From: Edaphobacter aggregans
GTDB lineage: Bacteria > Acidobacteriota > Terriglobia > Terriglobales > Acidobacteriaceae
Reading direction: 5' to 3'
DNA length: 52,472 nucleotides
Assembly: GCA_022736715.1 (NCBI GenBank)
Contig: DZDJ01000017.1
Location: forward strand, 4,823 to 57,294
The position numbers were made by a program, and so were the translations under genes. The notes below the pieces were generated by a model. It was not told where the DNA came from. It saw only the letters and a program-made list of their open reading frames with translations, and searched no databases. Positions 9,052 to 51,157 of the stretch are shown in pieces; the first letter of the stretch is position 1, and every line of letters starts with the position of its first letter.

Positions 9052-9195
9052 TCAGAGAAAAATTTCAGTCGGCGCTCTGCTATGTCAGAGTTGAAAGCTT
9101 TCCACAGGCGTGGCAAGCGAGCTTTGTGCTGCCTTACGGCCTGCGCAGACGCTTTCGCCTGCCCGCATAAATAGTTGTGCAGAAGGGGGCTTCTG

Positions 9196-11412
9196 ATGCG
9201 TTTTTTTATTACGAGATGCCTAGTATTATTCGCAGTTTTTGGTCTGGCATTGCAGTCAAAAGCGACAATAATGGCGGATCTGCGGGGTGTGGTGCACGAT
9301 CCGCAGCACAGACCAATCGCAGAGGCGCAGGTCACGGTGCAGGCAGTGCATTCTGATCTGCGGTTTGCGGGAAAGAGTGATGCGGATGGTGTCTTCACTT
9401 TTACGGCAGTTCCGCTGGGGGTATATACGGTGACGGTGCAGGCAGAAGGGTTTGCCGGGCAGCAGCAGAGGTTGATTCTTGCTTCTGGCACTGCGCCGGT
9501 CCTGCATTTTCCACTGAACATCGCAACCGCACATGCGACGGTGCAGGTGTCGGCGGACCTGGAATCTTTGGATGCGGGGACATCCACGCGTACGACGCTG
9601 GTCAGCCGGGAGCAGATTGCGCGCTATGCCGGCGTTGACGAGAGCAACAGCTTCCGCATTGTGACCGAGTTTCTGCCTGGGGCCTATATGGTCCACGATC
9701 AACTACACGTTCGGGGTGGGCATCAGGTGACGTGGGCCATTGATGGCGTGCCATTGCCGAACACCAATATCGCAGCTAACGTGGGGCCGCAGTTCAATCC
9801 CAAGGATGTGGATTTTATTGAAGAGCAGAGTGGCAGCTATGGAGCGGCGTATGGTGACCGCACGTATGGCGTCTTCAATGTGGCCATGCGCAATGGATTT
9901 GAGCGGAACCGTCAGGCAGAGCTGGTGGCAAGTTATGGCACTTACAATGCGACTGATGACCAGTTAAGTTTTGGCGACCACACTGAGAAGTTTGCTTACT
10001 ATGCAAGCGTCAATGGAAACCGTTCCGACTATGGACTGGAGCCGCCAACAAGCGTTAATCTGCACAATCAGGCATCCGGCGGTGGTGGATTTACATCGCT
10101 GATCTATAACGCCACGCCACAGGACCAGTTGCGCTTCGATGGTGGCTATCGGGCGGACTATTATCAGGTGCCGAATGATCCAGACCAGCAGGCCGCACTG
10201 GTGCGCGACCGGGAGCGGGAGCAGGATGGCTTCGGCATCCTTTCCTGGGTGCATACGGTGTCGCCCGGTCTGCTGGTAACAGCCTCGCCGTTTTATCATT
10301 TCAATCGCGCCGCATATGAGGGTGGGCCGCAGGATGTTCCCAGCGTAATTGACAACCGCGCCTCCACTTACGCCGGAGGACAGCTTGCCATCTCTTACGT
10401 GAAGGGAATTAATAATGCGAGTGCCGGCATTTATGCATTTGCCCAGGGCGACAACACATACTTCTCCGTTGTTGCCAATGATGGATCGGGAAGTGCCTTC
10501 TCACAGACCGTGAAGCCGGGCGGAAATCTGGAGGCAATCTTTCTTGGAGACCAGCTAAAGGCCACCAGTTGGCTGACGCTGAACGGAGGTGTCCGCCTGA
10601 CGCACTTCGATGGCCTGTTGAGCGAGAATGCAGCCGATCCTCGCGCTGGGGTGGCCATTCGTGTTCCAAAGCTCAACTGGGTGGTGCGCGGCGCGTATTC
10701 ACGTTTTTATCAGGCCCCGCCATTGGACACGCTTTCCGGGCCGTTGTTGCAGTATGCGGCAACGCAGGGAGCGGCCTTTCTGCCGCTGCATGGCGAGCGG
10801 GACGAGCAGCATGAAGTTGGGCTGACGATTCCTGTGCAGGGATGGATTGCAGACTTTGCCTACTTCCGCACGGGAGCACGCAACTTTTTCGATCACGATG
10901 TAATTGGCAACTCCAATATCTTTCTTCCGCTGACGATTCAGGCTGCGCGCATCAATGGTTATGAAGCCACGCTGCGTTCTCCACTGCTGGCGCAGCATTA
11001 TCATGCGCATCTGGTGTATTCCAACCAGCAGGCGGAGGGCTTTGGCGATGTGACGGGCGGGTTGCTGAACTTTGCCCCTCCAACGGTTGGCGGATACTAT
11101 CTGGACCACGATCAGCGTAATACGCTGGCAGCGGGGGTGGATGGGCCGCTGCCGTGGCATACGTATGCAGCCCTGAGCTATAACTATGGCTCCGGATTTC
11201 TGTATGAAGACGGACCGCAGCATTTGCCCAGTTACAGAACGGTCGATTTTTCCCTGAGTAAGAACTTCGGGACAAATTTAACTCTGCGGGCCTATGGAAC
11301 CAATATCACCAACAAACGGTATCAATTGGACACCAGCAACACCTTTGGTGGATCGCACTTTGCCGATCCGCGTATGCTTGCAGTGCAGGTTCGTTACCGT
11401 TTCCATTACTAA
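9196..11412 (+). CDS. TonB-dependent outer-membrane receptor, probable copper or metal receptor
   Basis: A 738-residue outer-membrane protein: signal peptide (1-26), a carboxypeptidase-regulatory-like/CnaB beta-sandwich (about 30-115), a plug domain (about 130-240) with the typical GSYGAAYGDR segment, and a 22-strand barrel ending in an aromatic C-terminus (YRFHY). It imports a bound ligand using TonB/ExbBD energy. The ATG at 9196 is preferred over an upstream in-frame TTG because AGAAGGGGG lies at Shine-Dalgarno distance. At this length it resembles metal/siderophore-type receptors rather than the larger Oar type. A SCO1-type gene follows after 28 bp, which suggests copper (inference). Confidence 0.87.
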   Translation: MRFFITRCLVLFAVFGLALQSKATIMADLRGVVHDPQHRPIAEAQVTVQAVHSDLRFAGKSDADGVFTFTAVPLGVYTVTVQAEGFAGQQQRLILASGTAPVLHFPLNIATAHATVQVSADLESLDAGTSTRTTLVSREQIARYAGVDESNSFRIVTEFLPGAYMVHDQLHVRGGHQVTWAIDGVPLPNTNIAANVGPQFNPKDVDFIEEQSGSYGAAYGDRTYGVFNVAMRNGFERNRQAELVASYGTYNATDDQLSFGDHTEKFAYYASVNGNRSDYGLEPPTSVNLHNQASGGGGFTSLIYNATPQDQLRFDGGYRADYYQVPNDPDQQAALVRDREREQDGFGILSWVHTVSPGLLVTASPFYHFNRAAYEGGPQDVPSVIDNRASTYAGGQLAISYVKGINNASAGIYAFAQGDNTYFSVVANDGSGSAFSQTVKPGGNLEAIFLGDQLKATSWLTLNGGVRLTHFDGLLSENAADPRAGVAIRVPKLNWVVRGAYSRFYQAPPLDTLSGPLLQYAATQGAAFLPLHGERDEQHEVGLTIPVQGWIADFAYFRTGARNFFDHDVIGNSNIFLPLTIQAARINGYEATLRSPLLAQHYHAHLVYSNQQAEGFGDVTGGLLNFAPPTVGGYYLDHDQRNTLAAGVDGPLPWHTYAALSYNYGSGFLYEDGPQHLPSYRTVDFSLSKNFGTNLTLRAYGTNITNKRYQLDTSNTFGGSHFADPRMLAVQVRYRFHY

Positions 11413-11440
11413 CGCAGTCAAAACCAGGGGGGAGGATTCA

Positions 11441-12412
11441 ATGAAATTCCGCATCGTTCATGCTCGTTCTCCGCAGATAAGTCCTTTTCATTTTTCTTGT
11501 TTACGCAATTTTCCGTTCCTGTTGTTTGGAGCAACTCTTGTTGTGGTTGCAGCCGGCCTGACCGGCTGCAACCACAACACAGCACCGGCGGTGCAAAACG
11601 CAGCGACGAATGTGAAGACGTATCCGGTGAAGGGCAAGGTGCTGGGCACGGATGCTTCCGAAGGCACTGTGACTTTGGATGGCGAAGCGATTCCGGGCTT
11701 CATGGATGCAATGGTGATGCCCTACAAGGTAAAAAATCCGAATGTGCTGAGCGAACTGCATCCGGGAGACACACTGACGGCGACGCTGTACACCAGCGAT
11801 CAGGGCGATTACCTGGACCAGTTGGTGGTGGTGGCGCAGGGCAAGTTGAACTACAAGCCAACCACGGGCGTTTATCATGTGCCGCAGGCCGGTGACGTGG
11901 TGCCGGACTTCAAGCTGCTGAACCAGAGCGGCAGGACGATCCATCTGCACCAGTACAAAGGCAAGGTGCTGATTATCACGTTCATCTACACGCGGTGCCC
12001 GCTGTCGGACTTTTGCCCGCGGATGAGCCGTTACTTTGCAGAGATCAACAACGCGTTGAAGAAAGATCCTGCGCTGTATGCCAAAACGCATCTGCTGAGC
12101 ATCAGCTTTGATCCTGTCTACGACAAGCCAGCCGTGCTGAAGAGTTACGGTGAGGCCTACACGGGAGAGTATACGAAGTCGACCTTCGGCCACTGGGAGT
12201 TTGCCGCACCTTCGAAGGACGAGCTTTCTATGGTGACGCATTATTTTGATGTAGGAGTGACGCCGGGTGAGAACGGCACTCTGACGCATTCGCTTTCGAC
12301 TGTCGTCATTGGGCCGAACAGCAAAGTTGTTGCGTGGTATCCGACCAACGAATGGAAGCCTGCTGATATTCTGAATAACGTAAAGCAGATTCTTGGGCCG
12401 AAAGCGAGTTAG
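11441..12412 (+). CDS. CusF-like domain fused to SCO1/SenC copper chaperone lipoprotein
   Basis: A 323-residue lipoprotein. The lipobox ends at Cys43. A CusF-like copper-binding domain at about 58-135 carries the Met motif FMDAMVMPYKV. A SCO1/SenC thioredoxin-fold domain at about 148-318 has two copper/redox cysteines, Cys186 and Cys192 (CPLSDFC, a wider spacing than the usual CxxxC), and a conserved His283 in LTHSLS. SCO proteins deliver copper to the CuA centre of cytochrome oxidase or act as periplasmic thiol redox proteins. The ATG at 11441 is chosen over an in-frame upstream start inside the receptor gene because GGGGGGAGG precedes it. It probably shares an operon with the receptor. Confidence 0.9.
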   Translation: MKFRIVHARSPQISPFHFSCLRNFPFLLFGATLVVVAAGLTGCNHNTAPAVQNAATNVKTYPVKGKVLGTDASEGTVTLDGEAIPGFMDAMVMPYKVKNPNVLSELHPGDTLTATLYTSDQGDYLDQLVVVAQGKLNYKPTTGVYHVPQAGDVVPDFKLLNQSGRTIHLHQYKGKVLIITFIYTRCPLSDFCPRMSRYFAEINNALKKDPALYAKTHLLSISFDPVYDKPAVLKSYGEAYTGEYTKSTFGHWEFAAPSKDELSMVTHYFDVGVTPGENGTLTHSLSTVVIGPNSKVVAWYPTNEWKPADILNNVKQILGPKAS

Positions 12413-38928: not shown

Positions 38929-39008
38929 AGTGTGATTATACGATTTTGCCGGGGCTGGAGCGCAGGCTGGCTGCAGAGTGCGGCGGAAACGGCGTAGAGT
39001 TAGAGGCG

Positions 39009-40379
39009 ATGATCGAACCCAAACTGATCCTGATAACGCTGCTGGTCAAGCTGGGTGTGGCCGCAGCTTTTTCCAGCGCGCTGGCGCGGTCGCGCGTCTT
39101 CAAGGACCTGTTGCTGGCCAAACACCGCAGCCGTGGGCAACTGCTGGGGCTGCTGGCGTTTATCTGCATTCCACTGACGCTGGGAGTCTGGATTCGGGTG
39201 ATTGTCCCCAACTTTCTGGCAGCAGACATTGCCTTTGAAACGATCATCATCCTGGGGGTCCTTTTCGGGCCGTTTGCTTCCGGCATTGGAGCATTGGCGC
39301 TGTCATTGCCAGCCATGCTGCATCACCAGTACCTGACGCTGCCGGTGAACCTGGTGGTGGCGGCTGTGGCGGGCATGTATGGCACATTTGCGGACAAGGA
39401 AGAAGTGTGGTCGTTCACTCCGCTGATCGACCTCAGCATCTATCGCTGGATTCGGCGCAATTTGAAGCAACCACGCTTTGACCGGCAGATTGTGCTGCTG
39501 CTGTTGATTGTGGTCATGCAGGTGGGCACCGGCTGGCTGGCGGTTCTTTACCCGAAACGCTATTTTGCGTTGCACTCCAACATCTGGTCCGTGAGCCTGG
39601 CGATTTATGTGTGCGCGCCGATGGTGGTCGGCATTCCCATCAAGATATGGAATGCTATCCGCATTGAGCGCAAGCTGGAAGAGCAGGAGCGCCTGCTGCT
39701 GGGGGCGCGGCTGGATGCGCTGCAGCGGCAGATCAATCCGCACTTCTTGTTCAACACGCTGAACTCCATTGCATCGCTGGTGCGCTTTAAACCGGAACTG
39801 GCGCGTGTGATGATCGTGAAGCTGGCGAATATTCTGCGTGTGCTGCTGAAGGACCGGGAGGCGTTTGTTCCGTTCCGTGAAGAGATCGGCTTTACAGACG
39901 ACTATCTCGACATTGAAGTGGTGCGCTTTGGCGCGGAAAAGCTGCAGGTGGTGAAAGAGATGGAGCCGGAGACGCTGGACATCATCGTTCCCAGCATGCT
40001 GCTGCAGCCATTGATTGAGAACAGCATCAAGCATGGACTGGAGCCGCGCATCAGCGGTGGAACCATTACGCTGCGCAGCCGCGTGCTGGATGACAAGCTG
40101 GTGGTGGAAGTGGAAGATGATGGCGTGGGTATGCCACCGGAAAAGGATGTACCTTCGCCGGTCAGCGGACTGGTGCGACCGGGCACAGGCATTGGCATGC
40201 GCAATGTGCGCGAGCGGCTTGCCGTGTTGTATGGCGATGCGGCGCGGATGGAGGTAGTCAGCCGGCCGGGGCGGGGAACGCGCATTACGCTGGTGATGCC
40301 GGTGCTGCAAACATCAGGTGATCTGCCGTGGCCGCAGAAGGGCAATGGCGAGGCAGCGGAACGGCAGATTCAGCTCTGA
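39009..40379 (+). CDS. LytS-type membrane sensor histidine kinase
   Basis: A 456-residue kinase. Residues 1-215 hold about six hydrophobic helices of the 5TM-LYT type, with a long cytosolic loop. The His_kinase (PF06580) domain shows the phospho-acceptor in INPHFLFNTLNSI near residue 248, then the N-box LIENSIKHGLEP and the G-box DDGVGMPP and GTGIGMRNVRERL. Such kinases normally work with LytTR response regulators, but none lies beside it here. The ATG at 39009 follows AGAGG and begins at the first membrane helix; the frame is open further upstream without family likeness. Confidence 0.9.
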   Translation: MIEPKLILITLLVKLGVAAAFSSALARSRVFKDLLLAKHRSRGQLLGLLAFICIPLTLGVWIRVIVPNFLAADIAFETIIILGVLFGPFASGIGALALSLPAMLHHQYLTLPVNLVVAAVAGMYGTFADKEEVWSFTPLIDLSIYRWIRRNLKQPRFDRQIVLLLLIVVMQVGTGWLAVLYPKRYFALHSNIWSVSLAIYVCAPMVVGIPIKIWNAIRIERKLEEQERLLLGARLDALQRQINPHFLFNTLNSIASLVRFKPELARVMIVKLANILRVLLKDREAFVPFREEIGFTDDYLDIEVVRFGAEKLQVVKEMEPETLDIIVPSMLLQPLIENSIKHGLEPRISGGTITLRSRVLDDKLVVEVEDDGVGMPPEKDVPSPVSGLVRPGTGIGMRNVRERLAVLYGDAARMEVVSRPGRGTRITLVMPVLQTSGDLPWPQKGNGEAAERQIQL

Positions 40380-42518: not shown

Positions 42519-42595
<77 letters not shown>

Positions 42596-42925: not shown

Positions 42926-43996
42926 TCAGCGGGCGGGGGGCGCAGCCGCCCCCAGGTTTGGACGCAGGTCCTTCGCATTCTGATTCATGTACGGGGCCAG
43001 ATCCTCATACTGATCTGTGGCGATAAAGTTCACACCTGCTGCGACCGCTGCCTTCCATCTTAGTGCGGCCGCTTCCAGCGAACCGAAGTTGTAGTATTGC
43101 CCCCATCCCTGGTCCTCCACGGAAGTGAAGCCGTCAAGTGTGTAAAAGCGTATCCAATAGCCTAGCTTATGAGCATGATCGACGAGGCTTCTGAGGCGCG
43201 CGTCGTCTGCCTGCGTCCAGTTCCCGGCGTGATTCTGTCCTCCCTCTTCCACGGGATACCATGAACTGTTTACCCAACGTCGATAGTTTGTAGGCCGCTC
43301 ATGGAGCAACTCCTCCGGTGAAGCTACTACGGCCCAATGCATCTGTTGCCGCATCGACATTCCCCTGGGGGGCAGGGGATTGTGCGCGGAACCGAAGACG
43401 CGGAGTCGAGCACCGACCGGCACTTGATCGTAGAACACACGTTGTTGCTCGTCAGAGTCTTCGGTAATTGCCAGGATGGGCTTTCGCTGAATCGGAGACA
43501 AATGATCAGGATTATTTGTCTTGACTGCAGTGGAAAGCCACGGCTCATATTCGCCCAAGAGCTGCCAGACGGCATTCAGAATTGCCGGTTGGTTGTCCTT
43601 GAAATCGAAGTGCAGGACGATGAGCGGCCAATCTTTTTGATGGTTCTGTGCAATTGCCTTTTCGATGACTGGCCTCAGCTGCTCAAAAAAATAGTCGTGC
43701 AAGGTTGGCTCTGCACCGGTGGGGTTGGGCGTATGCGAGACAACGACGCGGCCCTTACCCGTCACTGGGTCAACATACCAAGCCAAATCCTGCTCGATGG
43801 AGACCGGAAAACCAGAGCGCAGCGCCCGTCCAATGCGGTCGTTCCAGCGGCCGTCGTACGGATAACAATTATGTGCATCCAGCATTGGGCGGTTATGGTT
43901 TACAAAATTCAGATCAGGCACTTGCGCGGATGCCATCGATAGATTGGACGCCAAGATCATCCCTGTAAAGAACGAGGCAAACGTTTTGAGCATCAT
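42926..43996 (-). CDS. exported PLC-like/GDPD-superfamily phosphodiesterase
   Basis: A 356-residue exported protein. The leader ends near residue 25. A TIM-barrel-like chain resembles the PI-PLC/glycerophosphodiesterase superfamily: LDAHNCYPYDGRW with a candidate catalytic His near residue 41, IEQDLAW with acidic metal ligands, a later VVVSHTPNPTG with a second His, and a late IRFYTLDGF and FIATDQYEDL. It should split a phosphodiester such as a glycerophospho- or inositol-phosphate compound (inference). The ATG at 43996 is preferred since GAAGGG lies eight bases before it. It is the last gene of the receptor-PHP-PLC operon, 113 bp after the PHP gene. Confidence 0.75.
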   Translation of the reverse strand: MMLKTFASFFTGMILASNLSMASAQVPDLNFVNHNRPMLDAHNCYPYDGRWNDRIGRALRSGFPVSIEQDLAWYVDPVTGKGRVVVSHTPNPTGAEPTLHDYFFEQLRPVIEKAIAQNHQKDWPLIVLHFDFKDNQPAILNAVWQLLGEYEPWLSTAVKTNNPDHLSPIQRKPILAITEDSDEQQRVFYDQVPVGARLRVFGSAHNPLPPRGMSMRQQMHWAVVASPEELLHERPTNYRRWVNSSWYPVEEGGQNHAGNWTQADDARLRSLVDHAHKLGYWIRFYTLDGFTSVEDQGWGQYYNFGSLEAAALRWKAAVAAGVNFIATDQYEDLAPYMNQNAKDLRPNLGAAAPPAR

Positions 43997-44109
43997 GGTA
44001 TTGACCCTTCTCTGACATCGGCTGGAGATAGAATACATACGTTCTTCGAAGCAATTCTGGCGACGAGTAATCATTCCGATACTGGCTGGTTGTCCGAAAC
44101 ATTTCTCTA

Positions 44110-45579
44110 CTAGCGCGCGGGAAAGTTGATATAGATGGGATTGCCGATCAGGATGAGCGTGCCGTGACCGTCGCGGACCTCGGGCCGTAACCAGTGGCGT
44201 CCGTAGCTGGCCGTCCAATGCGCATGCAGGGTTTCATCGTTGCTTGAGATTTGCAGTGGTGCTAATGCCGGAGATTCATGTCCATCCACCAGCAGATGAA
44301 GCTGATTGCCTGCGCAGGCTACAACATGGGCGTCCAACTGGACTGACGCGGCATTGGAAGCAGCGAGGTCTTCGCCCATCCTTGCGTGGCGTGAGCCGAT
44401 GGTGGCATCCAGGTCGAGCAGTTTGTCGTGCGATGAGGTGAGATCGATGAAGACGCGGCCATTACGGATGCCGTCGAGAATGGCGGACACGGAGAGTTCA
44501 TCTGCTTCAACGACGGTCGTGGGCCTGCCAATAGCGCCGGGCTGGCCTGGAGGCGTCAGGGCGTCGTGATTGTCGCTGCCACCTATAGCGGTGAGGCGAT
44601 GGCCGGCTGCAATCGCGTGTTCCCAGAAATCCGCGCTCGAAAGCATGATGACGCCCCCGTTGATTACCTCGACAGCGGTGAAAAGACTCAGGTCGACTGG
44701 GGTAGAGTACGTCCACCCACAGCCCATGCAGCGCTCACCACTGGGCGCGTCGGCATGGTTGATGGAGGCGATGGCTCCTTTGGAGCGGACGTCCCGGAGG
44801 ATTGCGTCGATGTCGAGTCCATCGTGATCTACGGCGCGATAGTCAATGAACTGGGTAGTGCCGAAGACGTTGAAATGTCCCCAGAAGGTCGTTACTTCAC
44901 GAGCAGGAATGAGGAGCACTTTGTCGAAGTAGGGCTGTAGTTCGCGCATGGCATCGAACTGCGAAACAGTGTTGTGATCGGAGATGGCGATGAAGTCCAG
45001 GTTGCGCGAGGCAGCGGCCTGGAGGGTGAGAAAGACAGGGCATGGAACGCGGTGGCCAGCTTGGCTCGTACAGCTACCGTCGCTGTGCGCGGTATGCATG
45101 TGCAGGTCGCCACGATACCAACGAGAACCAGTGGCGAGCGGTCTGGACGCGAAGCTGTGGTCCTCCGCGGGAGGGTTGAAGCGAATCTCTGCACGGTAAT
45201 GAGAGATAACGCCGGCACGAATATTGGGTACGGAGAGGAGCAGCTTCCAGCGGCCAGACGGGATTTCACCAGGAAGATACGATGGCGTGGCATCCGTTTC
45301 GCTGAGGGTGAAGTGGTTCTTGTTGCCGCCGCTGGCGCCGCGAAAGCGATAGGGATCAGCGATGCCCAGATCGAGTGCTGTGTGCTGCTCATGGCCAGTG
45401 TAACTGAAGTCGACGCTGAGGCGATGCACGTTGTCGGGGACCGGGAAGGGAACTTCGATGTAGGTCTTGTTCTGCGCGCTGGTCACCGTGCCTTCGAGAA
45501 CCAGAGAAGGAGGAGTGGACTGAGCGCTGAGGACGGGCCCGAGGATGAGCCACGTGAGCAACCATACGTAGAACTTCAT
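44110..45579 (-). CDS. exported CehA/McbA-type PHP-domain metallohydrolase
   Basis: A 489-residue exported enzyme. Signal peptide about 1-20; a beta-sandwich-like N-terminal domain (about 25-145); then a PHP domain with the four metal motifs DLHMHTAHSDG, ISDHNT, SINHADAPSG and GGSDNHD; and a C-terminal beta domain. PHP enzymes hydrolyse phosphoesters, and CehA/McbA relatives can act on carbamates. The ATG at 45579 has AGAGGA upstream. The gene begins 74 bp after the TonB receptor stop on the same strand, and ends 113 bp before the PLC-like gene. Confidence 0.85.
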   Translation of the reverse strand: MKFYVWLLTWLILGPVLSAQSTPPSLVLEGTVTSAQNKTYIEVPFPVPDNVHRLSVDFSYTGHEQHTALDLGIADPYRFRGASGGNKNHFTLSETDATPSYLPGEIPSGRWKLLLSVPNIRAGVISHYRAEIRFNPPAEDHSFASRPLATGSRWYRGDLHMHTAHSDGSCTSQAGHRVPCPVFLTLQAAASRNLDFIAISDHNTVSQFDAMRELQPYFDKVLLIPAREVTTFWGHFNVFGTTQFIDYRAVDHDGLDIDAILRDVRSKGAIASINHADAPSGERCMGCGWTYSTPVDLSLFTAVEVINGGVIMLSSADFWEHAIAAGHRLTAIGGSDNHDALTPPGQPGAIGRPTTVVEADELSVSAILDGIRNGRVFIDLTSSHDKLLDLDATIGSRHARMGEDLAASNAASVQLDAHVVACAGNQLHLLVDGHESPALAPLQISSNDETLHAHWTASYGRHWLRPEVRDGHGTLILIGNPIYINFPAR

Positions 45580-45653
45580 TGAAGGGGTCCTCTTGAAAGA
45601 GAGTGGCCCGGAAGACGCTGTGGAGCTTCTTCCGGGCTGCTGGTTGGCCTTCG

Positions 45654-48600
45654 CTACCAATTGATCCGAACCGCGAATTGCATGACGCGGGGATCAGCCG
45701 AGAGCGAAGTGATGGCACCGGCGCTGCTGTTACTGACGTTGCCGCTGGGCTGCCCAAAGACAGGATGGTTAGCGACATTGAAGACTTCCCAGCGAAGTTC
45801 CGTGTTGACGCTGCTTGTGAATGCAATGTTCCTGTAGAGAGCGAAATCGAAGAGTTGGGTTCGTGGCCCAACCAGCGTGTTGCGGCCCACGTTGCCGATA
45901 TTGTATTGACCGGGATCAGCGAACGGAGTGGTGAGGCCGGAAGAAGCACCCCCGCAATTGGTGTTGCTGGAGTCGTAAAACCAGCAACTCGTCTTCCTGA
46001 GGTAGTGCACCGGGGCGACTTGATTGGGCGGAGCTACGGCGAATCCGTAGGCATCGAGCAAGGGGTTTTCGCTGGACCATGCGGCCTGAAACGGATGACC
46101 GGAGTAGAAGGTGTAGACGCCGGAAGTGGTCCAATTGCTGAGCACCCAGGAGGCAGGTCCGGACTGGAACATGGCCTTTCCGGTGCCGAAGGGGAGCTGG
46201 TACACATAGTTTGCGGAGATGCGATGACGGACGTCGAAATCGCTGTTGCCATACCATGCGGAAGGGTTACGCCCATTTGGTGCGCCACCGGAGTTGCTCT
46301 CCAATTCTTCCGGCGCATTGTCGAGGGAGTGCGAATAGGTGTAGGCAGCACTTACGCTGAGACCGTTATGTAAGGCGCGAGTGAGGCTGGCCTGGAGTCC
46401 GTGATAATTGCCGAAGCCGACTGCATCGAGGTACTCGATCTGGCCGAAGTTGGCGTAGGGCGTGGTGCCGCTTGGAGCAGAGGCGCTGGTCACCACGTGA
46501 TTGCCTGAGATCTCAACCTGGTTGTAGTCGCGGAGGACGTCGATGTTGGCGGAGTGGGTGCCGACGTAATCCATCTCTGCCAGCCAGGCCGAGGTGAGTT
46601 GACGCTGGACTCCAACGCTCCACTGCTGAACCGTTGGAGTGGGGATGTTGGGGTTGACAGCACGAATGTGAAAGTTCTGAAGTTGGGTGAGATTAATCGT
46701 GGTGGGATCGAGGAAGTTGGAGGGGAAGCCGACCGCAGGCGTGAGCACGGGCGCAACGTTGCTGGCTATGGTTTTGTTGATCAGATTCGGGGGATTGAGT
46801 GCGAGTTGATTTTCGCTGCCGATGCGCTCCAGGGAAGTGTAGTAGATGCCGAAACCGCCGTGCAGCACGGTCTTGTCATCCAGGCCGTAGGAGATGCCAA
46901 AGCGCGGAGCAAAGTTGGTGGTGTTGGGATTGACCAGAGCACGGTCGCTAAGGGAACCCGCCTTTGCGAGAACCAGCGATCCGGCGCCGGTTGGATTGAA
47001 GTTCGCCATCCGGTTTTGGCCTTCGACCGCGGGCGCGGCAAAGTCATAACGAAGCCCAAGGTTGAGGGTCACCTTTGGGCTCACCTTCCAGTCGTCTTCC
47101 ACAAAGCCAGAGGCCATCCAGAGGCGCTGGTCAACGAAGAATACGTTCGTCAGTTGGGTGTACTGAGTGGCGCCGAGCAAACCGTCGGCGTACGAGAGGC
47201 CACCAGTAAAGATGCCGGTGAAGTTGAGATCGCCGCGAGTGCCGGGCTCATCCTGGAAAATGTTGCGCATGGGGAGAAAGGTGGTAGCGCCGAATTTCAG
47301 GTTGTGCTTTCCAAGCGTCCAGGAGAGCGTGTCGTTGTACTGGTAGAGCATCGGGACCTGCTTCTTGGGAAGATAGTCTGGGGAGCCGAGGAAGGTCTTG
47401 TTGCTGAATTGTGTCAGAGGCACACCACCGCCAATCGCTGGATTGTCCGGGATTCCAGGAATGAAGCTGCCAGCCAACTGCGGCAGGCTGAAGGACTGTT
47501 GCTGCGCATAGGAGTAGTCGCGCACCCAGCCGAAGCGGAAGTCATTGACCATCGTCGGCTTGATGATGTGCGTCCACCCGATGACTACGCTGGCACCCTT
47601 GAGAATCTGGTTGCCCCAGGCTGAGGTCGCGGTGCCGTCTGCTAGTCCTCCAAAGTAGCCGGGAATATCACGCGTGCGATTGAAGTAGTTGAAGCGCGTA
47701 AAGATTGTGTCGGCTGACGAAGGCGTCCAGTCGACGCGAGCATCGTAGCTGCCGTTGAAGTCCGTCAACGCCCCGGTGCGGGAGTAGTTATTGAGCTCCG
47801 GGTAGGTAGCCCCCCCGTTCTTGAAATTGGGTTCGGGAAACAGCGCCATCAGCTTGCTGACTGCTGTGTCGATACGATCAGAAGGGATCTTGTTGTCCGA
47901 AAATGCGGTGCAGCCACTTTTCACGTTGTAGGGTGTGGCACATGTCAGCGGATCATAGACTGTGGGATAGGGAGCAACGCCATGGGCCGCGGCAGCAGTG
48001 GGACTGAAGTCGCCAATACGTTCATTGTCGAGCGGAACGGTGAATATACGAGAAACGCCCTGCTTGACCCGGGTAGCTTCGTAGTTGAAGAAGAAGAACA
48101 GGTGGTTCCGCACGATGGGGCCACCGATGCTGCCGCCGAACTGGTTCTGATTGTCCTCGGCCTTTTTGGCCTGCGACTGCTTGGAGAAGTAATCGAAGGC
48201 ATCGAAATACTGATTGCGGACATACTCATACGCAGTGCCGTGAAACCTGTTGGTTCCGCTGCGGGTGTTGACCGACACCACGGCTCCAGGAGCGCGCCCA
48301 TACTCTGCGGAGTAGGGGTTGGTGATGACATTGAACTCGGCGATGACGTCGACGGAAGGATGGGCAGCCTCGGTGCTCAGTTCCTGCACATTTTCAGAGA
48401 AGGTGTTGTTGTCGATGCCATCGAGAATAAAGTTGTTCTGCAAGGAGTGCACGCCATTGACATTGAAGTCGCCGGTGCGGCCCGCCGACGTTGAGCCGCC
48501 TTGATTGGTATAGCGGTTGATCTGTACCCCGGGAACGGTGCGGAGCAGATCGTCCCAGTTGCGGAGGAAGAGCGGGGTGCTCGCAATGATGTCAGAGGTG

Positions 48601-49109
48601 ATAACCGTGCTGATTGAAGCGTCGTCGCGCGACAAGCCGGAGCCAGGGCCTACCACCACAACGGTGTTGCGGGCGGCTCCTACCTTCAACTGAAAGTCGC
48701 GGCGCAGATGCACGCCAACTTTGATTGTTGCCAATTCCCTGAGAGTTGAGAAGCCGGTCGCAGAGACCGTAACCGTGTAGGCGCCGATGGGCAAGTCAGG
48801 GAAGATATAGTTCCCATCGGTTCCGCTCTGGACGGTGCGGGAATAGCCCGTACTCGCAGAGGTTACTGTGAGGGTAGCGCCCCGCACGATGGCTCCGGAT
48901 GGATCGGTCAAGAGGCCACTGAGGTTTCCGGTGTTCACCTGGGCCAGGGCACCGAGGGGAAGAAGCAGCAGCGCGAGCAGGCAGCACACGATCGAAAATG
49001 AAAGCAGAAGGTTTATGCTGCGCGTTACTGCCTTGAGTCTGCAAGAGAGTTTTTGCTGAACAGATGGATTGGTTTGGGGTCTTTGGTGAACAGATGGATT
49101 GGTTTGCAT
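45654..49109 (-). CDS. large Oar-type TonB-dependent receptor
   Basis: A 1151-residue outer-membrane protein: an unusual polar N-terminus with the repeat QTNPSV, a leader helix (about 30-55), a CnaB/carboxypeptidase-regulatory domain (about 60-145), a plug (about 160-290) with SAEYGRAPGAVV, and a long barrel ending in FAVRINW. Size and layout match the Oar-like family greatly expanded in Acidobacteriota, usually tied to polymer or organic-ligand uptake. The ATG at 49109 has AGGAG eight bases before it. With this start the leader is preceded by about 25 charged or polar residues, longer than usual. Confidence 0.9.
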   Translation of the reverse strand: MQTNPSVHQRPQTNPSVQQKLSCRLKAVTRSINLLLSFSIVCCLLALLLLPLGALAQVNTGNLSGLLTDPSGAIVRGATLTVTSASTGYSRTVQSGTDGNYIFPDLPIGAYTVTVSATGFSTLRELATIKVGVHLRRDFQLKVGAARNTVVVVGPGSGLSRDDASISTVITSDIIASTPLFLRNWDDLLRTVPGVQINRYTNQGGSTSAGRTGDFNVNGVHSLQNNFILDGIDNNTFSENVQELSTEAAHPSVDVIAEFNVITNPYSAEYGRAPGAVVSVNTRSGTNRFHGTAYEYVRNQYFDAFDYFSKQSQAKKAEDNQNQFGGSIGGPIVRNHLFFFFNYEATRVKQGVSRIFTVPLDNERIGDFSPTAAAAHGVAPYPTVYDPLTCATPYNVKSGCTAFSDNKIPSDRIDTAVSKLMALFPEPNFKNGGATYPELNNYSRTGALTDFNGSYDARVDWTPSSADTIFTRFNYFNRTRDIPGYFGGLADGTATSAWGNQILKGASVVIGWTHIIKPTMVNDFRFGWVRDYSYAQQQSFSLPQLAGSFIPGIPDNPAIGGGVPLTQFSNKTFLGSPDYLPKKQVPMLYQYNDTLSWTLGKHNLKFGATTFLPMRNIFQDEPGTRGDLNFTGIFTGGLSYADGLLGATQYTQLTNVFFVDQRLWMASGFVEDDWKVSPKVTLNLGLRYDFAAPAVEGQNRMANFNPTGAGSLVLAKAGSLSDRALVNPNTTNFAPRFGISYGLDDKTVLHGGFGIYYTSLERIGSENQLALNPPNLINKTIASNVAPVLTPAVGFPSNFLDPTTINLTQLQNFHIRAVNPNIPTPTVQQWSVGVQRQLTSAWLAEMDYVGTHSANIDVLRDYNQVEISGNHVVTSASAPSGTTPYANFGQIEYLDAVGFGNYHGLQASLTRALHNGLSVSAAYTYSHSLDNAPEELESNSGGAPNGRNPSAWYGNSDFDVRHRISANYVYQLPFGTGKAMFQSGPASWVLSNWTTSGVYTFYSGHPFQAAWSSENPLLDAYGFAVAPPNQVAPVHYLRKTSCWFYDSSNTNCGGASSGLTTPFADPGQYNIGNVGRNTLVGPRTQLFDFALYRNIAFTSSVNTELRWEVFNVANHPVFGQPSGNVSNSSAGAITSLSADPRVMQFAVRINW
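49057..49105. repeat. 19-bp direct repeat, 30-bp period, in the receptor N-terminus
   Basis: Positions 49057-49075 and 49087-49105 are identical and encode the QTNPSV repeat at the start of the receptor. This lengthens the N-terminal part of the signal peptide. Confidence 0.8.
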
Positions 49110-49122
49110 AATGGCGCTCCTG

Positions 49123-49146
49123 CAGAGCCTCCTCAAGGGCGCTCTG
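49123..49146 (-). promoter_or_regulatory. short leader hairpin of the Oar-type receptor gene
   Basis: CAGAGC (49123-49128) pairs with GCTCTG (49141-49146) around a 12-nt loop that includes the AGG-rich ribosome-binding area. It is a possible translational control element. Confidence 0.25.
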
Positions 49147-49205
49147 CTAGGCATAGGATTGGCTTCCCCGCGTCCCGGCAAAAGTATTTGCACGGCCGCA
49201 ACGCG

Positions 49206-49233
49206 TGTATACCCCTGTGTATAGAGCTGCCAA
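49206..49233 (-). promoter_or_regulatory. sigma70-like promoter of the receptor-PHP-PLC operon
   Basis: On the minus strand, TTGGCA (49228-49233) is followed after 16 bp by TATACA (49206-49211). Each matches consensus in five of six positions. The leader would be about 90 nt. Confidence 0.5.
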
Positions 49234-49437
49234 AAATATAGATTCCATGATGGATAGAGGGGTTGTGAATTGTCAGTAAAACATTCGGGACAGTGGTCGT
49301 TCCGGGGTTGTATTCACGTAGGGTTTACATGGCAACATTAATCTCACAAGATAAACACCCCATCGCTTCCCGCGCCGCCGATTCGTTTCGGCCGCACAAT
49401 GCCAGGACATCGCAGATTTAATTCATGGAGTTTGAAG

Positions 49438-50826
49438 ATGATCAGCGGACGACACAATACTTCTCCCTTAGAGTCACCGGCTTTACAAATTGAGGACGGC
49501 GAACATTGGCAACTTGTGCTGCGTATTGTCGCGAGCCGGCGCTTCCTGCGGGCGCCCCTGCTTTCGCGCTTTCTCCTGCACGTCTGCTCGGAGACGCTCC
49601 AGGGTCGCCAAGACGAGATCAGTGAATACCAGATTGGGGTACAGGCCTTTGGCCGGCCACGAAGCTATCGCACGATAGAAGACAATATTGTGCGCAACTA
49701 CGCACGGCAGTTACGCAGACGGCTGGCCGAATACTTTGCCGATGATGGCAAAGACGAACTCTACCGCATTGAGATACCTGTGGGCGGCTACATTCCGGTA
49801 TTTGCGGTGCAGCAAGGACACTGTCGGACCGATGAGATACTTCATGAGATTCATCCAGTCCAGGAGACAGCGATCGAAGCCAGCACCATCAAGTCGGCGT
49901 TTGCCGAGGCCCCAGCCAAGGCGTCCGAGGCACACCCTCGGCCGCACTCCGTGAGTCAGCGCCGTCCGGTAAGGATTGCGCTGCTGTTTGTATATTTCTT
50001 GGTACTGGTTGGAGTCACAGCTGCCGCATTGCTACACGTTCGACTCGTCCGAGCCACACTGCAACCAACATCCATATTGTGGGCGTCTCTGTTTCGATCT
50101 CCGCTGAACACGTTTGTGGTCCCGGCTGATAGTGGATTCAACCTTCTTGAGGATCTCTCCAGAAAGCGGGTCCTTCTTGGAAGCTATGTCAAGGGAGATT
50201 ATCTGGGCCTGCCGTTGCCTGTCATGGATGAACACAGCCAAGCCGACCTGCGGTCACAGGAGTTCACCAGCTTTGTTGACCTACAAGTGGTCTCCGCGAT
50301 CTCGCGACTGCCGGAAGTAGATCCGCAACGCCTATTCATTCGTTTTCCACGCAATCTCCGCATGGATGATCTGAAAACGGGGAATGTCATTTTGATTGGA
50401 TCGATCGGAAGCAACCCCTGGGCAGAGCTGGCGCAGCGTAACCTGAACTTCCGGATCGACTACAGCACCAAAATGCAAAAAGCCTGGGTGGAAAACTACA
50501 GTCCCAGGGCGGGCGAGGCGAAACACTACGATAGCCTATGGACGGAGCCCTCCCATCCTACCTATGCCGTCATCGCTTACCAGCCCAACCTTTCCGGGGC
50601 AGGCCACATTCTTTTAATTGAGGGCCTCGACGTGGCCGGAACCCAGGCTGCTGCTGACGCGCTGTTGCACGGTGAAACGCTGATGCCTGTGCTGCGCGCA
50701 GCCATGCAACCCAACGGCGAGCTGCGTTCCTTTGAAGTGCTGCTGCAATCCACGAGCATCGAATCCAACGCCGCCACTACGCAAGTTGTGGCATCTCGTA
50801 TTGGGGAAAACGAAAGTCATCTGTGA
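49438..50826 (+). CDS. membrane-anchored DNA-binding-like regulator
   Basis: A 462-residue protein. Residues about 20-125 form a basic winged-helix-like domain with EYQIGVQAFGRP, EDNIVRNYARQLRRRL and IEIPVGGYIPVF. A linker follows, one membrane helix (about 178-200), then an extracytoplasmic domain of about 260 residues with no named family. The layout is like CadC-type one-component regulators: a ligand is sensed outside and DNA bound inside. It is divergent from the receptor operon, so control of that operon is likely (inference). The ATG at 49438 is chosen because GGAG lies seven bases before it. Confidence 0.78.
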   Translation: MISGRHNTSPLESPALQIEDGEHWQLVLRIVASRRFLRAPLLSRFLLHVCSETLQGRQDEISEYQIGVQAFGRPRSYRTIEDNIVRNYARQLRRRLAEYFADDGKDELYRIEIPVGGYIPVFAVQQGHCRTDEILHEIHPVQETAIEASTIKSAFAEAPAKASEAHPRPHSVSQRRPVRIALLFVYFLVLVGVTAAALLHVRLVRATLQPTSILWASLFRSPLNTFVVPADSGFNLLEDLSRKRVLLGSYVKGDYLGLPLPVMDEHSQADLRSQEFTSFVDLQVVSAISRLPEVDPQRLFIRFPRNLRMDDLKTGNVILIGSIGSNPWAELAQRNLNFRIDYSTKMQKAWVENYSPRAGEAKHYDSLWTEPSHPTYAVIAYQPNLSGAGHILLIEGLDVAGTQAAADALLHGETLMPVLRAAMQPNGELRSFEVLLQSTSIESNAATTQVVASRIGENESHL

Positions 50827-51082: not shown

Positions 51083-51157
51083 TGGTGGCCAGAGACGGGA
51101 TCGAACCGCCGACGCCGGCCTTTTCAGGGCCGCGCTCTACCACTGAGCTATCTGGCC
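51083..51157 (-). tRNA. tRNA-Phe (anticodon GAA)
   Basis: A 75-nt cloverleaf read on the minus strand: acceptor GGCCAGA/TCTGGCC, D-arm GCTC/GAGC, anticodon stem CGGCC/GGCCG with loop CTGAAAA, a normal T-arm with GTTCGAT, and encoded CCA. Confidence 0.97.

Follow-up and report, generated by a model that had tools for sequence, protein, structure and literature searches.

The regulator encoded beside a TonB-dependent receptor operon of Edaphobacter aggregans appears, as judged from sequence comparison, to represent a whole family of receptor-linked regulators that share a putative operator, which is a stronger finding than the view of this regulator (hereafter REG) as an accessory of one operon. 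It is rather probable that the Acidobacteriaceae, which are common soil bacteria, use these unnamed, membrane-anchored one-component regulators as private switches of TonB-receptor operons, with one shared operator grammar and a sensor domain weakly resembling BcsB and S-layer proteins. Receptors of the PF25183 type are numerous in each Acidobacteriaceae genome, and a family of regulators linked to them and marked by one recognisable operator would permit the direct prediction of regulons and of receptor cargo. If true, the receptor uptake systems of each genome could be read from sequence, as SusR and HTCS regulators allow in Bacteroidota. No description of this pairing of regulator and receptor was found in the literature searched, where most subscription papers were absent. 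The locus described here is a good test case, since its genome holds only one receptor-adjacent REG and one CehA/McbA enzyme, and since two putative operator boxes precede the operon. Taken as a whole, the explanation that best accounts for it, and to which we give better than even weight, is a REG-switched receptor operon that would import and split an organic phosphodiester.

The locus and its regulator

The window, by which the whole analysed stretch of 52,472 nucleotides is meant, contains four intact ORFs between positions 42926 and 50826. REG lies on the forward strand (49438–50826) and is divergent from three genes on the opposite strand, namely an Oar-type TonB-dependent receptor (TBDR, 45654–49109), a CehA/McbA-family PHP metallohydrolase (PHP, 44110–45579) and a GDPD/PLC-fold phosphodiesterase-like enzyme (PLC, 42926–43996), both enzymes being predicted to be exported; the refined starts are 49438, 49109, 45579 and 43996, respectively. 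This is the layout that the first-pass annotation had proposed, with receptor, PHP and PLC genes on one strand and a divergent regulator. The same order is also met in several other genera (L102, L103, L104, L107, L127 and L171, and also L086 and L088–L090, where some of the listed loci come from shared genomes; L088 and L127, for example, are one locus taken from two collections, as are L089 and L171), and this recurrence argues that it is not due to chance. Among the variants, some lack a detected PLC (L108–L125) and others a detected PHP (L106, L126, L138, L140 and L146), while the receptor operon stands without an adjacent REG in L072–L074, with TBDR-PHP-PLC present in L073 and L074. Since L109–L125 retain REG and PHP beside a mostly distant receptor (26–28% identical), parts of the module are exchanged.

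The gene cluster is flanked by tRNA-Val and tRNA-Phe genes (window 42519–42595 and 51083–51157). The idea of a genomic island between these two tRNA genes was considered and set aside: in relatives neither a tRNA nor hpnK adjoins apt, so that no empty site could be demonstrated. In close relatives the operon is found in other gene contexts. Elsewhere in the window, at 9175–12412, a second TonB-type receptor precedes an SCO1/SenC protein with a fused CusF copper-binding domain, possibly a pair for copper uptake or handling, and the region 38946–40379 resembles a LytS-type sensor histidine kinase in sequence (NPHFLFNTLNSIASLV motif).

REG has no match in Pfam, NCBIfam or the PDB sequences, in agreement with the earlier statement that its outer domain belongs to no named family, and its description as a putative membrane-anchored one-component regulator comes from an AF2 model (pLDDT 87) and from alignments A1 and A2. 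The model predicts a winged helix-turn-helix domain at about residues 40–124 (helices 40–54, 63–70 and 84–106, hairpin 109–124), a low-confidence linker (129–172), a long hydrophobic helix (176–206) holding the single transmembrane (TM) segment, and a C-terminal domain at about 209–455. The label "CadC-like" that had been given to REG thus holds for this predicted topology, but not for family membership, as none of 28 REG members matches the Trans_reg_C domain (PF00486) at E ≤ 1. Comparison of REG with the Trans_reg_C domains of its own genome by hhalign gave a probability of only 25%, and the link to Trans_reg_C runs solely through one bridging paralog, which matches the REG profile with E 1e-16 and PF00486 with E 8e-4, the latter below the cutoff. 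This paralog is the second gene of REG architecture in the genome of the window (L002:1423–2730, G000 contig C220); it is diverged and adjoins a murB-like ORF, with a PF25183 receptor about 2 kb away. Only one REG of this genome stands directly beside a receptor. As for the C-terminal domain, the best Foldseek matches of the REG model are BcsB of cellulose synthase (E 5e-3) and an archaeal S-layer anchoring domain (E 2e-2), and weak echoes of S_layer_C and BcsB are present in the sequence. The naming of the fold from BcsB, S-layer or GH115/GH67 matches was rejected, these being too weak; a cell-surface or glycan-binding fold is a lead and not an assignment.

REG belongs to a large family. Of 150 genomes of the order, 120 contain REG-like sequences, where weak matches may represent the DNA-binding domain only, and two complete genomes have REG-like genes at 22–25 places each. 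In a sample of the phylum, full-length matches fall mostly within the Acidobacteriaceae, the family of the window itself, and the DNA-binding part alone sits on other proteins elsewhere.

Receptor linkage and a shared putative operator

The receptor claimed by the first-pass annotation as Oar-type was identified as such by its domain set, consisting of OMP_b-brl_4 (PF25183, E 5e-230), CarboxypepD_reg (9e-17) and Plug (9e-10). Its coding sequence includes, within the N-terminus, a 28-nt direct repeat with 30-bp spacing and 93% identity (49049–49106). The genome of the window has roughly 19 PF25183 receptors, and two relatives with single-contig genomes have at least 61 each.

In 66 of 80 named relatives of REG, a divergent receptor of the PF25183 type lies no more than 1.2 kb away, and in five further ones the receptor is co-directional and just downstream. 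Because many of these 80 relatives are related to each other, the two single-contig genomes were also counted, with a barrel required within 2.5 kb and the best 61 receptors per genome scored. A divergent receptor was found upstream of 12/25 and 7/22 REG members, compared with 1.0% and 1.3% under random placement; when both genomes are pooled, the arrangement holds for 19 of 47 members, as against about 1% at random.

A second line of evidence is provided by the intergenic regions. The direct repeat RTRAA-N6-RTRAA (searched as TRAA-N7-TRAA), with half-sites exactly 11 bp apart, occurs in 53 of 67 divergent intergenic regions; the corresponding numbers are 3.5 for first-order Markov shuffles and 1.6 for stretches of matched length taken from the same loci. 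TRAA pairs number 76 at distance 11 (3.3 expected) and 3–6 at the distances 8–10 and 12–14, and the purine that precedes each half-site, which lies outside the searched pattern, is present in 85% and 96% of the sites. The repeat persists in 14 of 17 loci when only REGs less than 50% identical are kept, and it is found upstream of 49/75 receptors with REG compared with 4/21 without it. Since 11-bp direct repeats are the usual target of tandem OmpR-type winged helices, the repeat also agrees with the winged helix predicted for REG. A search for GTRAA-N6-GTRAA throughout three genomes revealed no clear enrichment, which fits sites of local action.

The intergenic region of the window (49110–49437) contains two copies of the repeat plus a GTATAC element. 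The putative operator O1, GTGAATTGTCAGTAAA, is a direct repeat of 11-bp pitch on the forward strand (49265–49280), and O2, GTAAACCCTACGTGAA, is a repeat of the same type in reverse orientation on the other strand (49313–49328), both being recognised through the family-wide motif and their distance being usually 47 bp among the related regions. The third element, the unstranded GTGTATACCCCTGTGTATAG box (TATAC-N6-GTATA, 49205–49224), was delineated by computational footprint and by its spacing to O1: in 17 of 19 cases, 58 or 59 bp separate the GTATAC element from the first TRAA of O1. The "good promoter" previously described in front of the operon was dropped, since a σ70 scan of 49000–49500 gave one weak site compared with 0.7 expected and was thus not above chance.

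Given the receptor linkage and the shared intergenic repeat, REG looks like a dedicated one-component switch, and we consider it very probable that it is the dedicated regulator of the neighbouring receptor operon. It is nevertheless important to weigh whether REG might be a general envelope or stress regulator whose adjacency to receptors merely reflects their abundance, as might be suggested by the REG copies without a nearby receptor and by the murB-like neighbour of the second copy in the genome of the window. However, the linkage far exceeds random placement and the shared repeat is specific to REG-receptor intergenic regions, which makes a general regulator highly improbable.

The enzymes and their candidate substrate

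The exported PHP hydrolase and the exported PLC-like diesterase that had been claimed at this locus are both backed by the analysis at the level of family or fold, their export being predicted from signal-peptide-like starts read by eye. The PHP protein matches NF038032 (CehA/McbA) with E 6e-77 and 259 bits, well over the curated cutoff of 80, and it is the only enzyme over this cutoff in the genome of the window. It shares with the CehA/McbA metallohydrolases the metal-ligand set (HxH, DH, E, H and DxH), which is invariant across 17 sequences (H161, H163, D202, H203, E229, H276, D337 and H339 in A4 numbering), and differs from them by an additional N-terminal region and by four cysteines (C171, C181, C285 and C288 in A4 numbering). 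The latter are invariant across the same number of sequences and may, from the alignment, form disulfides or an extra metal site. A PDB sequence search with the PHP protein returned no useful match, as the titin matches span only a short C-terminal stretch.

The PLC protein has neither a Pfam family nor a PDB sequence match, and its assignment is based on an AlphaFold model (pLDDT 81.5) that resembles GDPD/GlpQ structures in Foldseek (E 4e-5 to 9e-4, probability about 1.0, TM score normalised to the target 0.43–0.60). The predicted TIM barrel and the residues H42, E68, D70 and H88, invariant across 13 sequences, liken it to the GDPD/GlpQ phosphodiesterases (H...E-x-D...H), and we take the spacing of these residues to be roughly that expected for GDPD catalytic residues. 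In contrast to ordinary GDPDs, the HRG motif is replaced by HNC, and no Pfam GDPD or PI-PLC match was obtained for the PLC of the window, with one of 13 members reaching GDPD_2 at E 0.07. Homology to PI-PLC-C1 was tried and not detected (hhalign probability 6.9%). PLC orthologs (65–72% identical) are also present in L094–L101, with no match to the receptor, PHP or REG within the same 18–19 kb.

The cargo of related loci is informative with regard to the substrate. Of the 66 divergent loci, 56 are assessable, and 45 of these carry at least one of PHP, PLC, PI-PLC-C1, calcineurin-type, PAP2, PF04185 or GH92 proteins; without the loci that have GH92 only, the count is 42/56, which is descriptive only because the queries were chosen largely from those same loci. 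Among the closer relatives of REG, the cargo consists mostly of PHP, PLC, PI-PLC, calcineurin-type or PAP2 enzymes. For instance, in L154 a divergent PHP is paired with a Ca-dependent PI-PLC-C1 (PF16670), both confirmed by Pfam, and the same pairing with PI-PLC-C1 is seen in L167, where the PI-PLC is also Pfam-supported, and in L180, while calcineurin-type enzymes accompany PI-PLC-C1 in L134, L139, L144 and L145. No homology is detectable between PLC and PI-PLC-C1, which suggests that different enzymes have come to form an analogous pair, and the association of PHP with either of these two PLC types favours phosphodiesters. Operons linked to REG elsewhere also carry amidohydrolase, tannase, GH1, GH35 and amylase, and in the two-whole-genome sample phosphoesterase cargo was found in 6/27 cases with REG compared with 3/40 without it, an excess that is not significant (p=0.14). 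Given this result and the varied cargo, REG is best regarded as a regulator of receptor operons in general, with phosphodiesters as the likely theme of the REG clade that holds the locus of the window.

The first-pass reading, in which the regulator senses, the receptor imports and the exported enzymes split a phosphodiester, therefore stands in part. In its favour are the match of the PLC model to GlpQ/GDPD and the repeated phosphoesterase cargo of related loci; against it are the other cargo types, the lack of a significant phosphoesterase excess in the family at large, and the fact that the enzymes behind the CehA/McbA name are carbamate and ester hydrolases. On balance, a phosphodiester as substrate of the operon is about evenly poised. 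The name-giving enzymes, together with the tannase, amidohydrolase and glycosidases of REG-linked operons elsewhere, would also suit a module of the same build whose cargo acts on a carbamate or on a carboxyl or phenolic ester (e.g., derived from plants or lignin) and has nothing to do with phosphate; this we regard as unlikely, considering that a GDPD-type barrel is encoded alongside PHP and that the close clade carries mostly phosphoesterases of several unrelated families. Alternatively, the operon might serve carbon supply, and not phosphate scavenging, by dismantling a phosphodiester linked to a glycan (GPI-like, phosphatidylinositol mannoside or fungal phosphomannan). GH92 and GH38 glycosidases and PI-PLC-C1 do recur as cargo in relatives, and L126 has PLC and GH92 together, but this is the only one of 66 loci in which the two co-occur and the operon of the window itself has no glycosidase, so such a role seems somewhat unlikely. 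That the purpose of the operon is phosphate supply rather than carbon supply is likewise doubtful.

In the phosphodiester reading that we prefer, the winged helix of REG would bind the RTRAA-N6-RTRAA repeats within 49110–49437, and the TM helix would carry a C-terminal domain, presumably periplasmic, that senses either a ligand or the receptor's state and then turns the operon on. The organic phosphodiester, whole or in fragments, would enter through the receptor; opening of the diester would fall to the exported GDPD-fold enzyme, and the PHP enzyme would probably cleave off the phosphate that is left or a second ester.

Relation to known regulatory systems

When compared with regulators of known type, REG resembles the CadC/ToxR proteins in its predicted arrangement of an N-terminal winged helix, one TM helix and a C-terminal sensor domain, and differs from them in that it does not match PF00486 and its C-terminal domain belongs to no named family. 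With FecI/FecR sigma/anti-sigma control it has in common the pairing of a regulator gene with a TonB receptor gene; in contrast, REG is one DNA-binding protein, and the locus encodes neither a sigma factor nor an anti-sigma partner. Finally, a comparison drawn from general knowledge can be made with the SusR and hybrid two-component regulators of Bacteroidota, in which a dedicated membrane-anchored regulator likewise adjoins a TonB receptor operon, with many paralogs per genome and a cargo that varies from operon to operon. The Acidobacteriaceae systems nevertheless belong to another phylum and are made of other domains, with no histidine kinase or SusD-like protein seen.
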